From NCBI RefSeq assembly GCF_010731295.1, contig NZ_AP022579.1:5580001-5644000 (forward strand): 64,000 nt of DNA, written 5' to 3'. This DNA comes from Mycolicibacterium boenickei. Lineage in GTDB: Bacteria > Actinomycetota > Actinomycetes > Mycobacteriales > Mycobacteriaceae. Within the stretch, counting starts at the first letter, position 1, and each line of letters begins with the position of its first letter. Position numbers and translations under genes: made by a program. The notes under the pieces are model-generated. The model was not told where the DNA came from. It made no database searches and was given only the letters and a program-made list of their open reading frames with translations. Shown in pieces: positions 9,756-59,313 of this stretch.

Positions 9756-9786
9756 GGCCGATCGTCAAGTTTTTTGACGATCGGCC
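9756..9786. terminator. Strong hairpin between convergent genes (first)
   Basis: Perfect 13-bp arms, GGCCGATCGTCAA and its complement, around a GTTTT loop. It lies in the gap between the convergent DUF6319-like and DUF732 genes. There is no long T tract after the stem, so it may be a non-canonical terminator, as is common in mycobacteria. Confidence 0.6.
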
Positions 9787-9828: not shown

Positions 9829-9857
9829 CCGACTTGAAGTGAGGCACTTCAAGTCGG
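9829..9857. terminator. Strong hairpin between convergent genes (second)
   Basis: Perfect 12-bp arms, CCGACTTGAAGT and its complement, around GAGGC. It is 16 bp from the stop of the DUF732 gene and probably ends that transcript. Like the first hairpin it lacks a T tract. Confidence 0.6.
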
Positions 9858-31688: not shown

Positions 31689-32306
31689 GTGGCGCGTAGA
31701 CGCGGGTGGGACGGGCGACCGCCCGGCAGCGACGAGGAAGCCTCCGAACGCATCGTGGCCGCGGCCGTGCAGCTGATCGCCGAAACGGGTACCGGGATCA
31801 GCATCGCCGACGTCGCGGCATCGCTCGGCGTCATCCGCCAGACGGTGTACCGCTACTTCCCCACCGCCGAATCCCTGATGCACGCGGCGGCGATCGCCAC
31901 GGTCGACGGATTTCTCGACCGGCTCGCGGCGAGCGTGCGTGGCATCACCGACCCGGCCGAGGCGATGACCGAAGGCGTGATGTTCACCCTGGAAGAGGTC
32001 GCCCGGGTACCGCACCTGCGCATCATGCTGTCCGGGCCGCAGGCCGCCGCCAGCTCGGTCAACGTCGCCTCCGACGAAGGCCAGGCCTTCGGTATGCGGA
32101 TGATCACCCGCTTCGATGTCGACTGGGAGAAGTACGGATACGACGAAGCCGCCCTGCGCGAACTCGTCGAATTCACGCTCCGCACCATGCTGTCGTTCTT
32201 CGTCGCACCCAACGACCCGGGCCGGAGCCGAGAAGAGCTGCGCCGCTTTGTCAGACGGTGGCTGGGCGGGTCGATTCTGGCGCAACCTGCCGACGGGAAG
32301 CGATGA
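31689..32306 (+). CDS. TetR family transcriptional regulator
   Basis: 205 residues. The N-terminal helix-turn-helix is ERIVAAAVQLIAETGTGISIADVAASLGVIRQTVYRYFPTAESLM, the classic TetR form. The C-terminal ligand domain has DPAEAMTEGVMFTLEEV and FGMRMITRFDVDWEKYGYDE. GTG 31689 has AGGAA about 9 nt upstream and precedes ARRRGWDGRPPGSDEEASERI. The gene is divergent from the PF10118-type operon and the 32-bp palindrome lies between, so it probably represses both. Its last 56 bp overlap the 3' end of the epoxide-hydrolase-like gene on the other strand, an unusually deep convergent overlap. Confidence 0.88.
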   Translation: MARRRGWDGRPPGSDEEASERIVAAAVQLIAETGTGISIADVAASLGVIRQTVYRYFPTAESLMHAAAIATVDGFLDRLAASVRGITDPAEAMTEGVMFTLEEVARVPHLRIMLSGPQAAASSVNVASDEGQAFGMRMITRFDVDWEKYGYDEAALRELVEFTLRTMLSFFVAPNDPGRSREELRRFVRRWLGGSILAQPADGKR

Positions 32307-33264
32307 CGTCGCCGAACACGGCGGGGATCAACCGGTTGAAGATGTCGGCGCGCTCCCATTGCAGAAAATGGCCGGCACCCGGAACCACCAGTGGCCCAAT
32401 GCGGTTGAGAAACGCCCGCTCACAGCGAGGCACGAAATCCTCGCCGACCACATGATCGTCGGGGCCGTAGAGCACCAGCGTGGGCACGTCCACGGCGTGC
32501 ATCAGCGGGATCTCGGACATCGCGCGACCGTAGGCGAGTTGATACGACGCCCAGCCGGCCCGTAGCCGCGCCTCGTCGGCGAACGGCTCGGTCATGAAAT
32601 CCACGTCGGCCTGGGCGAATGCGTATGCCGAACCCCACAGCCGATTGGTGTACATCGCGGCCACCCACTGCCTGCGCGCCTCGGGCGTGGGCAGCATCGC
32701 GGCGAGTTCATCGGGGAAGGCACCCTGCATCCAGCGGTAGTCGCCGGTGGGGTCGGCCGCGCCGCCCACCGACGCCGGATGTCGGGTGCCGATACCCGAG
32801 TAGTCGACGGCCATGGGCGGCACCGTGTTGAAAACGCAGAAACGGCTGACGAATCCGGGGAACCGATGGATCAGATCGGTACTCACAACCGCCCCGACGT
32901 CACTCGCTGCGATCAGGCAGGACTCGTGACCCAGCTCGTCATGCACCAACGCGTACAGGTCGCGGGAGTACGTGACGATGTCGTGCTGATCATCGGGCGG
33001 GACCGAACTGTCCCCCATCCCGCGCAGATCCGGCACGATGACCTCGAAGCCCGCCGCAGCCAGGGCCTCGATGTTGCGCCACCAGATCCGCTTGGTCTCG
33101 GGATACCCGTGCACCAGCAGCAAGGGCACTCCGCCGATACCTTCGCGGACGAATGCCAGCGAAACCCCTTCGGCGACAACGGCAGTGTGGATGGTGAACG
33201 CGTCAGCGGCCGGTGCCGGAGGCTGCGCCGGCCGCTGACGCGGGTCATACCGGAAATCCGCCAT
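32251..33264 (-). CDS. Alpha/beta hydrolase, epoxide hydrolase-like
   Basis: 337 residues with the alpha/beta hydrolase order: oxyanion loop LLLVHGYPETKRIWWRN, VIVPDLRGMGDSS, the nucleophile elbow LIAASDVGAVVSTDL (Asp nucleophile, S-D-V-G) and PGAGHFLQWERAD, whose His is the general base. Asp nucleophile and PDLRG favour epoxide hydrolase or haloalkane dehalogenase over an esterase. The lid region has FAQADVDFMTEPF. The gene is transcribed toward the TetR gene and overlaps its end. It could share its control region with the amidohydrolase gene upstream (18 bp gap, same strand), making a catabolic unit. Confidence 0.87.
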   Translation of the reverse strand: MADFRYDPRQRPAQPPAPAADAFTIHTAVVAEGVSLAFVREGIGGVPLLLVHGYPETKRIWWRNIEALAAAGFEVIVPDLRGMGDSSVPPDDQHDIVTYSRDLYALVHDELGHESCLIAASDVGAVVSTDLIHRFPGFVSRFCVFNTVPPMAVDYSGIGTRHPASVGGAADPTGDYRWMQGAFPDELAAMLPTPEARRQWVAAMYTNRLWGSAYAFAQADVDFMTEPFADEARLRAGWASYQLAYGRAMSEIPLMHAVDVPTLVLYGPDDHVVGEDFVPRCERAFLNRIGPLVVPGAGHFLQWERADIFNRLIPAVFGDVIASRRQVAPESTRPATV

Positions 33265-33282: not shown

Positions 33283-35043
33283 TCAGCGCGTCCCGCGCAC
33301 CAGACGACCCGGGCGGGCACCGGTGTCGACACCGTGACGGCGGGTCACCGTGCCGCTGACGATCGTCGCGTCGTAACCACTCGCGCCCTGCACCAACCGC
33401 TTTCCGCCGGCAGGCAGGTCATACGCCATGCGCGGCGCATGCAAGGTCAGCGCATCCAGGTCGATGACGTTGACGTCGGCCTTCTTACCCACGCTGATCA
33501 CGCCACGGTCCGACATCCCGTAGAGCTGCGCGGTGTCGTGCGACTGCTTGCGGATGACGTACTCCAGCGGCAGCTTCTCGCCGCGGTGACGGTCGCGCGC
33601 CCAGTGCGTCAGCAGGAACGTCGGGTAGGAGGCGTCGCAGATCATGCTGCAGTGCGCGCCGCCGTCGGACAGGCCCAGCACGCCGGCCGGGTGAGTGAGC
33701 ATCTCCCGGATCGCATCGTGGTTGCCGTCGGAGTAGTTGAACATCGGATACATCAGCATGGCGCCGCCATTGGCCTCGAGCATCAGGTCGTACATCGCCG
33801 CCAGGGGGTCCACCCCACGCTGCTTGGCGATCGCCGCGACGGTGCGCTCGTCGGTCGGTTCGTAGTCCGGCGGTTCCCCGATGTGGTACAGCCGGTTTGC
33901 CGCATTCTGCGCGAGCATGAACATGCCGTCGAAGAGCTTGTTCGGGTCGATCGGCAGGTCTTCCTCGGCCAGGATCGCCGCCCGTACCTTCGGGTCCGCG
34001 AGCCGCTCGGCCAGCTCCTCGCGGGTGCATTCGGCCTGCAGGCGCCGGTAGGTCGGCCGGTGGGTGAAGGCGTGGTGACCGGGAAAGCCCAGCAGCATGC
34101 CGAACGGTCGCGCCGCGACCTGCGGGAACAACCGGCTACCGGCCTGATGCGCGGCGGCCGACAGGTCGAGCTGCTCCCGCCACAGGTTCGGGTCGGCGTC
34201 GACCTGGATCAGGGCGAAGCTGAGCGCGCAGTCGATCTCCTCGCCGAGGCGGCGCATCCACTCGAGTTCCGTCTTGGGGGCGACGATGTCTTCGCCTGCA
34301 GCACCCTGCGGAGCCAGCTCGAACACCGCCGCACCACCGGCGGCGGTGGCCCGGCCCAGGGCGAACAGCTCGTCCTCGGCGGCGAAGGTGCCGGGGACGG
34401 GCTCGCCGTCCATGGCCCGGTGGGCAAGGGTACGGGAGGACGAAAAACCAAGCGCACCAGCTTCGATCGCCTCCTGCACCAACTCGGCCATCGCCTTGAT
34501 GTCGTCGGGCGTCGCGGGTTCGTTGCGGGCGCCGCGCTCTCCCATCGCATAGGCGCGCACGGCACCGTGAGCAATCTGGGTCCCCATGTCGACGGCCAGT
34601 TCACGCCGGCCGATCACGTCCAGGTACTCGCCGAAGGTCTCCCAACCCCAGGTGATGCCCTCGGTCAGCGCGGTGCCGGGGATGTCCTCGACGCCCTCCA
34701 TGAGCTTGATCAGCCAGTCCTCCTGGCCGGGCCGGACCGGGGCGAAGCCGACGCCGCAGTTGCCCGCCACCACGGTGGTGACACCGTGGTTGCTCGATGG
34801 TTCGAGCACTGCGTCCCAGGACACCTGGCCGTCGTAGTGGGTGTGAATATCGACGAAGCCGGGGGCGACGATCTTGCCTGTGGCGTCGATGGTTTCGGCT
34901 GCGTCACCGGCCAGAGTCGGGCCGTCGGCGCCGCGCCGATGCACCTCGACGATCTTTCCGTCCTTGATCGCGACATCTGCGGTGAACCGATCAGCGCCGG
35001 TCCCGTCGACCACAGTGCCGCCGGTGATTTTGAGATCGAACAC
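33283..35043 (-). CDS. D-aminoacylase-type amidohydrolase
   Basis: 586 residues of the amidohydrolase group that includes N-acyl-D-amino-acid deacylase and N-acyl-D-aspartate/glutamate enzymes. The metal sites are [19 protein letters not shown] (H-x-H), [16 protein letters not shown] with a possible Cys bridge, [27 protein letters not shown] (Asp/His) and [12 protein letters not shown]. Such enzymes remove an acyl group from an unusual amide. The long insert around [28 protein letters not shown] is a family mark. The start lies 28 bp from a 43-bp palindrome shared with the divergent Rieske gene; it is followed by the hydrolase gene after 18 bp. Confidence 0.9.
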
Positions 35044-35070: not shown

Positions 35071-35113
35071 CGCTACGGTCGCAATGTAACACCGTTACAT
35101 TGCGACCGTAGCG
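35071..35113. promoter_or_regulatory. 43-bp palindromic operator with perfect 20-bp arms
   Basis: Left arm CGCTACGGTCGCAATGTAAC (35071-35090), spacer ACC, right arm its exact complement (35094-35113). The ends lie 28 bp and 30 bp from the two divergent starts. Each arm holds a TACATT -10-like element. It suits a TetR dimer, and the TetR gene 36477-37139 is in the plus-strand operon. Confidence 0.85.
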
Positions 35114-35142: not shown

Positions 35143-36480
35143 ATGACCCACGGCTCGACCGATACCGACACGCCACGACGGGCTGATGCGATCGGCGACC
35201 CGCCGGCACGCCCCACCCTGGTGCCGGCCGTCCGCTACATCTCACCGTCGTTCGCCCAACTCGAAGTGGCACGCATGTGGCCGCGCGTGTGGCAGCAGGC
35301 ATGCACGGTCGATCATGTGGCCGAGCCGGGCGACTACTTCGAATACCGTTGCGGCCCCTACTCCGTTCTCATCGTCCGCGGCGATGACGGTGAGCTGCGC
35401 GCCTTCCAGAATGCCTGCCGCCACCGCGGCAACGCCCTGTGCACGGGCGCCGGTTCGTCGCTGCGGGAATTGAAGTGCGGCTACCACGGCTGGACCTGGG
35501 ACCTGGCCGGCGCGCTCAAACGGATCCCGAACCGCAAGGGATTCGGCACGGTGCACATGTCGGAGTTCCCGCTGGCGGCGGTACAGGTCGACACCTGGGA
35601 ACGGTTGGTGTTCGTCAACCTCGACCCCGGCGCCATGCCGCTGGCCGACTACCTTGAGGCGGTCCCCGGCGACATCGCCTGGTGCGGGCTCGGCGACTTC
35701 CGTTGCTACGCAACGATGACCATCGACGTCGACGCCAACTGGAAGACCATCGCCGACGGCTACAGCGAGACCTACCATGTCCAGACCCTGCATCCCGAAC
35801 TGCACCGGTGTATGGACGACGTGTACGCGCCCCAGAAGATCTGGGGCCACACCGGCAAATCCGAATCCCTCTACGGGGTTCCGAGTCCGCGCCTGGCCGG
35901 GGCGCTGAGCGACGACGAGGTGTGGGACGCCTATGTCGACACGCAGGGCGCCCTGATGGGGATCGCCGAGGGCACGCCGTTCCCCCGTGACCGGCAGTCG
36001 CCCGGCCAGACCGTGGCCGACGTGATCGCCACGCAGGTCAAGGAATTCGCGGCCGGTCGCGGCGTCGACATCGGCTGGGCCAGCACCGACCAGGTGATGT
36101 GCCTGCACCAGTACAACATCTTTCCCAACCTGACCCTGCTGGCCAGCGCCGACCACCTGACGGTGATGACCTCCCTGCCGGGCCCCGATCCCGATCGGGG
36201 CCAACTCGTGATGACGCTGATGACCCGCATGCCTGCACAGGCACCGCGGGTCACCCCGACCGATGTCCGGCTGAACGCCGAGGAGGCCCATCCCGGTCTG
36301 GTGATGAGCCAGGACATCGCCGTGCTGAACGGCCTGCAACGCGGGCTGCACCAGCCGGGGTTCACCCATCTGGTGCTGTCCGCCGAGGAGCGGAGAATCA
36401 TCAACATGCACCGCAATCTCGAGCGCTACCTCGACCTGCCCGAGGCCGAACGCATCCGCGAGGCGGAAGCCGGCGGATGA
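35143..36480 (+). CDS. Rieske non-heme iron oxygenase, alpha-subunit-like
   Basis: 445 residues. The N-terminal Rieske domain has FQNACRHRGNALC and LKCGYHGWTWDL, i.e. C-x-H and C-x2-H ligands of the [2Fe-2S] cluster. The catalytic domain carries NWKTIADGYSETYHVQTLHPEL, with the H-x4-H of the 2-His-1-carboxylate iron site. It should hydroxylate an aromatic or other hydrocarbon, with a separate reductase that is not nearby. ATG 35143 is set by GGAGG 7 nt upstream; a far longer frame upstream is antisense to two genes. It is divergent from the amidohydrolase and coupled to the TetR gene (ATGA). Confidence 0.92.
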   Translation: MTHGSTDTDTPRRADAIGDPPARPTLVPAVRYISPSFAQLEVARMWPRVWQQACTVDHVAEPGDYFEYRCGPYSVLIVRGDDGELRAFQNACRHRGNALCTGAGSSLRELKCGYHGWTWDLAGALKRIPNRKGFGTVHMSEFPLAAVQVDTWERLVFVNLDPGAMPLADYLEAVPGDIAWCGLGDFRCYATMTIDVDANWKTIADGYSETYHVQTLHPELHRCMDDVYAPQKIWGHTGKSESLYGVPSPRLAGALSDDEVWDAYVDTQGALMGIAEGTPFPRDRQSPGQTVADVIATQVKEFAAGRGVDIGWASTDQVMCLHQYNIFPNLTLLASADHLTVMTSLPGPDPDRGQLVMTLMTRMPAQAPRVTPTDVRLNAEEAHPGLVMSQDIAVLNGLQRGLHQPGFTHLVLSAEERRIINMHRNLERYLDLPEAERIREAEAGG

Positions 36481-37139
36481 GTCCCAAGGCAAAGCCGATC
36501 GATGCCGACGTCATCCTCGACGCGGCCGCGAGCCTCATCGAATCCGATGGGGTGGAGGCGTTCTCGATGCGCGGGCTCGCCGAGCGGATCGGCGTGGCCG
36601 TCACCTCGATCTACTGGCACATCGGCGGCCGTGACGCGCTCTTCGACAGCCTGGTCGACCGCCTGGTCGCCGAGATGGCCGGACTGCCCATGGAAGGCGA
36701 CACTCCGGTCGATCGGATCGCCTCGCTGGCCCGCAACCAGCGCGGCCTGCTGATCCGCCGCCAGCATCTGCTGGCCATCGCCCATGAGCGGGACCGCACA
36801 CCGAGGCTGTTCCTGCCGGTCCAGCAGAAACTCGCCGCCGAACTGGCCGAAGCGGGGGTCATCGGGACCCACGCCGCCCTGGTGTTACGGGCCGTGCAGG
36901 TGCACGTGACCGCCTCTGCAGTGATGCTCTTCTCGGCTGTGCGGGGCCCCGCGCACGAGGAGGAGGACCCGTCGCTGTGGACTGCCGACTGGCCCGATCA
37001 GGCACTCGTCGCAGCCCTGCAGTCCCCCACCGACTACGACGCGGTGTTCGAGTACGGCCTCGACGCGATGTTGGCGCCGCTGGCTGTGCCGGCCCGTGCC
37101 AACGGACGGCTCAGGGCAGCACGGTCTTCATCAACATGA
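36477..37139 (+). CDS. TetR family transcriptional regulator, downstream of the Rieske gene
   Basis: 220 residues. HTH: DVILDAAASLIESDGVEAFSMRGLAERIGVAVTSIYWHIGGRDALFDSLV, the TetR N-domain with the SIYWH variant of YYYHF. The remainder is a TetR_C domain (QRGLLIRRQHLLAIAHERD, LFLPVQQKLAAELAEAGV). The ATG overlaps the TGA of the Rieske gene. It probably binds the 43-bp palindrome upstream of the Rieske gene and so controls both divergent transcripts, including its own. Its final 29 bp overlap the end of the DUF4185 gene on the other strand. Confidence 0.9.
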   Translation: MSPKAKPIDADVILDAAASLIESDGVEAFSMRGLAERIGVAVTSIYWHIGGRDALFDSLVDRLVAEMAGLPMEGDTPVDRIASLARNQRGLLIRRQHLLAIAHERDRTPRLFLPVQQKLAAELAEAGVIGTHAALVLRAVQVHVTASAVMLFSAVRGPAHEEEDPSLWTADWPDQALVAALQSPTDYDAVFEYGLDAMLAPLAVPARANGRLRAARSSST

Positions 37140-59272: not shown

Positions 59273-59313
59273 CGAAATCGCCCAGAACACAAGGTGTTCT
59301 GGGCGATTTCGTT
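59273..59313. terminator. Terminator, 18-bp perfect stem with 3-nt loop
   Basis: CGAAATCGCCCAGAACAC (59273-59290), loop AAG, then its exact complement (59294-59311) and TT. It separates the YhdH-like gene from the convergent Ag85 gene and is able to end both. Confidence 0.85.

Follow-up and report, generated by a model that had tools for sequence, protein, structure and literature searches.

The TetR repressor of tetracycline resistance binds a 15-bp palindromic operator, tetO, according to the account in PMC4482099. The nearest published case that we found is the Rv3160c-Rv3161c pair of M. tuberculosis, in which a TetR-type gene and a Rieske oxygenase gene share one operon, and PMC7810876 describes long inverted repeats at its promoter. 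This case shows that long palindromes at the promoters of Rieske genes can be genuine operators of TetR-type regulators. Another class of related arrangements is that of the bidirectional promoters, which carry opposite -10-like elements within a few bases of each other and have their starts within each other's -10, as described in PMC12825309. A fourth described process, quasi-palindrome correction, turns an imperfect repeat into a more perfect one when one arm takes up the complement of the other (PMC8604942). The same article presents template switching as a process that homogenises the arms of inverted repeats and recurs in yeast, and PMC8794818 contains the proposal that it creates and maintains stems in RNA genes.

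Here we describe a palindrome from a 64-kb stretch of mycobacterial DNA (the window, meaning the whole of the stretch analysed) that can be compared with all four systems. It resembles the tetracycline system in its predicted 15-bp palindromic operator and in a regulator composed of TetR_N and TetR_C_1, for which the tetracycline repressors are the nearest solved structures. It differs in that the genes predicted to be controlled are those of a hydrolase and a Rieske oxygenase, and in that tetR lies inside the oxygenase operon. While both repeats at the Rv3160c-Rv3161c promoter are needed for binding in the account of PMC7810876, only the inner 15 bp are conserved here. The bidirectional promoters covered by PMC12825309 share one -10, whereas this locus has two adjacent ones, three bases apart, and its symmetry spans a repressor site and was seemingly copied. 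The cases of quasi-palindrome correction that we found described come from genes of yeast, from mutation assays in E. coli and from stems in RNA; the present one, if so made, would concern a promoter-bearing repressor site in its natural setting.

The palindrome and the genes around it

The palindrome lies between two groups of genes that are read in opposite directions. The genes and the parts of the palindrome are the following:

32251..33264, minus strand: alpha/beta hydrolase gene, 18 bp after the amidohydrolase gene and in the same direction
33283..35043, minus strand: amidohydrolase gene (Amidohydro_3, D-aminoacylase-like), assigned by family match and by the D-aminoacylase structure 1v4y (E 3e-29)
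35071..35084, no strand: left outer arm, CGCTACGGTCGCAA, probably the older arm (template), common to symmetric and asymmetric relatives
35085..35099, no strand: 15-bp core, half-sites TGTAAC and GTTACA around the spacer ACC, predicted TetR operator, adjoining tetR in 70 of 70 TetR-bearing genomes
35100..35113, no strand: right outer arm, TTGCGACCGTAGCG, probably the younger arm (copy), different from the form of the asymmetric relatives
35143..36480, plus strand: gene of a Rieske ring-hydroxylating oxygenase alpha subunit (Rieske and Ring_hydroxyl_A)
36477..37139, plus strand: gene of a TetR-family regulator (TetR_N and TetR_C_1)

The alpha/beta hydrolase and amidohydrolase genes are predicted to form one operon. 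On the other side, the ATG of tetR, which starts at 36477, overlaps the stop codon of the Rieske gene (ATGA). The solved protein nearest to the Rieske oxygenase by sequence is carnitine monooxygenase, and the nearest Rieske protein among the loci returned is that of M. porcinum (96%).

The palindrome is perfect over 43 bp (35071-35113) and reads CGCTACGGTCGCAATGTAAC-ACC-GTTACATTGCGACCGTAGCG. Alignment of its arms, 35071-35090 and 35094-35113, showed 20 nt of 100% complementarity on either side of a 3-nt gap and so bore out an earlier note on this DNA, which had reported a 43-bp palindrome with perfect 20-bp arms. No longer perfect inverted repeat exists in the window (spacer up to 8), and in ten sequences of equal length generated by a first-order Markov model no arm exceeded 11, as compared to 20. 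The palindrome is real and far beyond chance. Folded as single-stranded DNA it reaches -24.7 kcal/mol, with a z of -11.7 against 200 shuffles. It is separated by 27 bases from the GTG of the amidohydrolase gene (35043) and by 29 bases from the ATG of the Rieske gene (35143). The figures of 28 and 30 bp in the earlier note are each larger by one base.

Three more inverted repeats with arms of 13-18 are present in the window, so that hairpin length by itself is not unique; what distinguishes the 43-bp palindrome is its place between two divergent starts. The second-longest palindrome in the window, at 59273-59311, has 18-bp arms and a 3-base spacer; judged by eye it lies between gene ends and is perhaps a terminator-type hairpin. 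Two hairpins with 13-bp arms, at 9756-9786 and 9829-9857, are separated by 42 bases.

The 15-bp core and its linkage to tetR

The genomes of the genus were surveyed for the regulator and for the core. A TetR orthologue was found in 70 of 248 genomes (280-464 bits; the next best match had 63 bits). Of the 248 genomes, 66 contain the exact 15-mer, as a single copy in each, and all 66 are among the 70 TetR carriers. The other four carriers have the half-sites TGTAAC and GTTACA at the same place (amidohydrolase on the left) around the spacer AGT, and the genomes with this AGT form, 4 of 248, are the same four. Neither the ACC nor the AGT form of the core was found in any of the 178 genus genomes that lack a TetR orthologue. 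The co-occurrence of the exact 15-mer and TetR has a Fisher p of 6e-56 with kinship ignored, shared descent being a confounder of this value.

The order of the genes was then compared among amidohydrolase/Rieske loci (best 80 of 166). All 42 divergent loci have TGTAACACCGTTACA in between and TetR after the Rieske gene, while the core and any TetR match at E 1e-20 are both lacking from all 38 tandem loci. Furthermore, 10 of 20 chosen loci have no Rieske gene in between, and in these the core precedes tetR. Since the core is present beside tetR even where the Rieske gene is missing, it goes with tetR. This co-occurrence, together with the absence of the core from the tandem loci, indicates that the core is likely the operator of the TetR encoded in the rightward operon, to which the protein would bind. 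The earlier note had named that TetR as the likely binder and was probably right, with the half-sites beside tetR in 70 of 70 genomes and neither form of the core in the 178 others. The operator claim is based on these surveys, which were started from the TetR and Rieske proteins, and not on the 80 distinct operator regions used in the following sections. Those regions were gathered via the half-sites, and half-site conservation within them is circular. They were oriented by their genes, and the counts leave out the window's own loci (L001, L002, L083, L114 and L165) as well as L113.

The recognition helix of the regulator is nearly invariant in 25 orthologues, with T43-H48 and G50-D53 invariant. 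Against the tetracycline repressor model NF010319 the protein scores 54.2 of 265 bits, which is far below the curated cut-off. None of the four exact 15-mers looked for was found in the open-access papers searched, and no paper on this operator was seen there. Judged from the sequences, the core would be a new TetR operator of the ordinary kind, placed between divergent promoters and enlarged in close relatives.

A larger regulon was considered and rejected, as the genome has, allowing 1 mismatch, a single further TGTAACNNNGTTACA, which adjoins a different TetR gene. That site, TGTAACACGGTTACA at L113:1501-1515 (540872 in the window's own genome), lies between the genes of a TetR_C_20-type regulator and a short-chain dehydrogenase; it is possibly a near-twin operator of this other regulator, with possible cross-talk. 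In L144-L147, where no Rieske gene lies between, the half-sites are retained, and the spacer AGT differs at two bases from ACC but at only one from GGT, the usual spacer when inverted; perhaps a spacer inversion was followed by a change. In the one tandem amidohydrolase-Rieske locus that was inspected, the genes of another TetR_N protein and of a phosphotransferase-like protein are found upstream (L033:1168-1788), and this gene set may have changed its regulator along with its gene order.

The outer arms and the -10-like elements

Perfect arms extend over 20 bp in 4 of the 80 operator regions, over 16 in another 4 and over 13 in a single one; in the remaining 71 they reach 6-7. A tenth symmetric region, L115, is symmetric to 20 except for the base adjoining the core. 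The outer 14 bp of each arm are symmetric in 10 of the 80 regions, all of them close relatives of the window. The earlier note had taken the extra-long symmetry for the TetR site and had pointed to arm conservation in relatives as a check. Perfect arms of at least 13 occur in only 9 of the 80 regions; the long arms were accordingly rejected as a conserved TetR site, and the part that is kept measures 15 bp, the ordinary size for a TetR site.

The left arm is common to symmetric and asymmetric relatives. The sequence GGCCGCTACGGTSGCAA plus half of the core, with at most 2 mismatches, was found in 24 of 396 genus genomes, symmetric or not. In relatives this arm reads GGCCGCTACGGT-(G/C)-GCAA before the core, and its TANNNT is kept in more distant loci. 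The right arm is GAACCGCCGTGCCG in the asymmetric L008, L011, L157 and L179 and GAACCGCCGTGCCGAG in L008, L011 and L179, and other asymmetric relatives differ by one to several bases. When the right arm of the window was compared with the asymmetric form, a reference picked by eye rather than reconstructed, 7 of 14 bases differed; all seven differences turn the base into the complement of the left arm, and no pair is undone. The corresponding numbers of changes toward the left-arm complement are 6 of 7 in L003, 6 of 6 in L115 and 4 of 5 in the L004 type. The asymmetric form pairs 8 of the 14 outer positions with its own G-type left arm and 7 of 14 with the C-type. One position covaries, being G on the left and C on the right in L004, L005 and L173, and C on the left and G on the right in the other palindromic loci; in L008 the left arm is of the C-type and the right arm has the asymmetric form. 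The spacer to the right of the arm occurs in two types that track the state of the arm, and L008 is a hybrid. The symmetry can also be non-contiguous: the sole mismatch of L115 adjoins the core, L003 has an internal mismatch and L007 a deletion. The changes are clustered in one arm and lead to the complement of the other, which is the mark expected of template switching.

Both strands of the palindrome carry TANNNT elements:

35074..35079, plus strand: TACGGT, predicted -10 of the Rieske-tetR operon, the conserved TANNNT left of the core
35083..35088, minus strand: TACATT, predicted -10 of the amidohydrolase gene, a leftward TANNNT being present in 80 of 80 regions
35096..35101, plus strand: TACATT, mirror of the amidohydrolase -10, directed toward the Rieske gene, among the 80 regions in the 10 palindromic ones only
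35105..35110, minus strand: TACGGT, mirror of the Rieske -10, directed toward the amidohydrolase gene, which follows from the palindrome

TANNNT is given as the preferred SigA -10 of M. smegmatis in PMC6448022. In 63 of the 80 regions the first base of a rightward TANNNT is found at -11 to -13 relative to the core, and at 49 other left-side offset triples, taken as a control, the mean was 0.6 and the maximum 5 of 80. The leftward element has its TA inside the core, and its last T alone is independent (core base -2, A in 80 of 80); because the core supplies part of this -10, its conservation counts for little as evidence. On its strand the leftward TACATT is preceded by TGT. A TGN before the -10 is a feature of extended -10 promoters. 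The mirrored rightward TANNNT at +11 is present in 10 of 10 palindromic regions and 0 of 70 others, in agreement with the earlier claim that both arms carry mirrored -10-like elements.

The rightward TANNNT at -11 to -13 is missing in 17 of the 80 regions; 11 of these have one at +28 and 6 have one at none of the three places, which were picked, +28 included, after looking at the regions. The element at +28 lies within a second copy of the operator, worn or near-perfect (TGTAATAGCGTTGCG and similar). Such a copy, 23 bp right of the core, was seen in L109/L116, L030, L044, L045, L074, L077, L081, L117, L120, L124 and L131. A scan with consensus sequences gave no -35/-10 pair. Using the usual distance from -10 to start, the leftward start is predicted near 35076 and the rightward one near 35086, each inside the -10 of the other promoter.

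Origin of the arms

Trees were built from 26 chosen loci, and the palindromic group was defined after quick trees had been viewed. L022 and L009 were left out of the amidohydrolase tree, and the Rieske tree additionally lacks L148, L153, L011 and L168, the last of which has no Rieske gene. In the amidohydrolase tree, which has 24 rows, no fewer than 3 changes are required for the palindromic loci, and one clade is rejected with a p-AU of 0.008; in the Rieske tree (20 rows) they need at least 4 changes and the p-AU is 0.001. The one-clade test rises to 0.059 for the amidohydrolase without L008, and to 0.145 for the Rieske protein without L008 and L115. Because the result leans on these two loci, a single origin plus recombination is also possible, and the arms may reflect several gains, or one gain and later exchange between species. 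The Rieske protein of L115 is 80% identical to that of the window and its amidohydrolase 94%, and the Rieske tree places this locus outside the palindromic group. In L115 the oxygenase gene next to the operator was likely exchanged between species.

We propose that the 15-bp core is a TetR operator that shuts both operons, and that the outer arms are a young addition, probably made by template switching from left to right; we regard this account as reasonably likely. The older state would have been the core and a left flank with two opposite-strand -10-like elements three bases apart, the leftward TACATT overlapping the left half of the core and the rightward TACGGT just outside it. TetR, for which we infer an inducer, would jointly shut its own Rieske-tetR operon and the leftward operon of the amidohydrolase. 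Bound to the core, a dimer would lie over both the leftward -10 and the rightward start, so that a single dimer would suffice to block the two promoters. Subsequently, in close relatives of the window, new sequence would have replaced the right flank, which was already partly complementary to the left one, from the core outward over a tract that now has 7, 10 or 14 bases of full complementarity. For this, the nascent strand would fold back on the 6-3-6 hairpin and the DNA polymerase would copy the other arm. Both -10 elements would be mirrored as a by-product, giving each gene a second promoter. A bolder version, which we advance tentatively and with some doubt, is that the operator seeds its own promoter: the short hairpin of the TetR site would prime a template switch that mirrors the flanking -10 elements onto the opposite strand, and this single mutation, repeated in several lineages, would convert a one-sided pair of neighbouring opposed promoters into a symmetric bidirectional promoter with arms kept in concert.

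Alternatively, the whole 43 bp could be an extended operator to which more than one dimer of TetR binds, in the manner of QacR or Rv3160c, with arms selected for tighter repression. A QacR tetramer binds a 28-bp palindrome in the description of PMC4482099, and Rv3160c needs 8-bp and 12-bp inverted repeats, both within 50 bp in front of a Rieske oxygenase operon, in that of PMC7810876. In addition, the outer positions of the 70 non-palindromic regions pair at 4.29 of 14, against 3.73 when re-paired (3 of 2000 as high), a small excess that shared descent alone can produce. However, a site of the QacR or Rv3160c type should be symmetric in its outer part wherever the regulator is kept, and symmetry of this kind is limited to the 10 regions, with the long perfect arms in 9 of 80. 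The helix-turn-helix stretch IGVAVTSIYWHIGGRDALF is the same in the palindromic window and in L010, which is not palindromic, and the closest PDB relatives of the regulator, the tetracycline repressors, also speak against such a site. We consider an extended operator unlikely.

Selection could also have acted on the mirror arms as promoter sequence, with the second rightward TACATT and the leftward TACGGT raising the expression of both genes. The distribution of the mirrored rightward element, confined to the palindromic regions and present in all of them, agrees with this explanation, as does the pseudo-symmetry of bidirectional promoters noted in PMC12825309. Nevertheless, two base changes adjoining the core would suffice to create the new -10, whereas the match extends over 7-14 bases, and the asymmetric spacer leaves the copied -10 without the TGN of the leftward one, so we find selection for promoter sequence rather improbable. 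If the palindrome worked as an RNA hairpin or as a terminator, this would account for the strong fold and for one terminator-like pattern found on the plus strand, but shuffles average 0.3 such patterns and the palindrome is located between divergent starts, not after a gene end. Moreover, the predicted starts of the conserved promoters are inside the palindrome, so their transcripts would not contain the two arms together, and the Rfam matches are all below the gathering scores, most of them to microRNA hairpins. A terminator or leader hairpin was rejected on these grounds, and a role in RNA appears very improbable.

In this operator palindrome, what is visible to the eye can be separated from what is kept: 15 bp travel with the regulator across the genus, and 28 bp are local. 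If the arms arose by template switching, operators would be seeds for template switching, and the length of a palindrome would say little about how large the site of a protein is. Such an origin, if true, would also mean that divergent promoters can become symmetric by a simple mutational path. The locus also offers a clear candidate TetR-operator pair for a mycobacterial Rieske/aminoacylase-like gene set.
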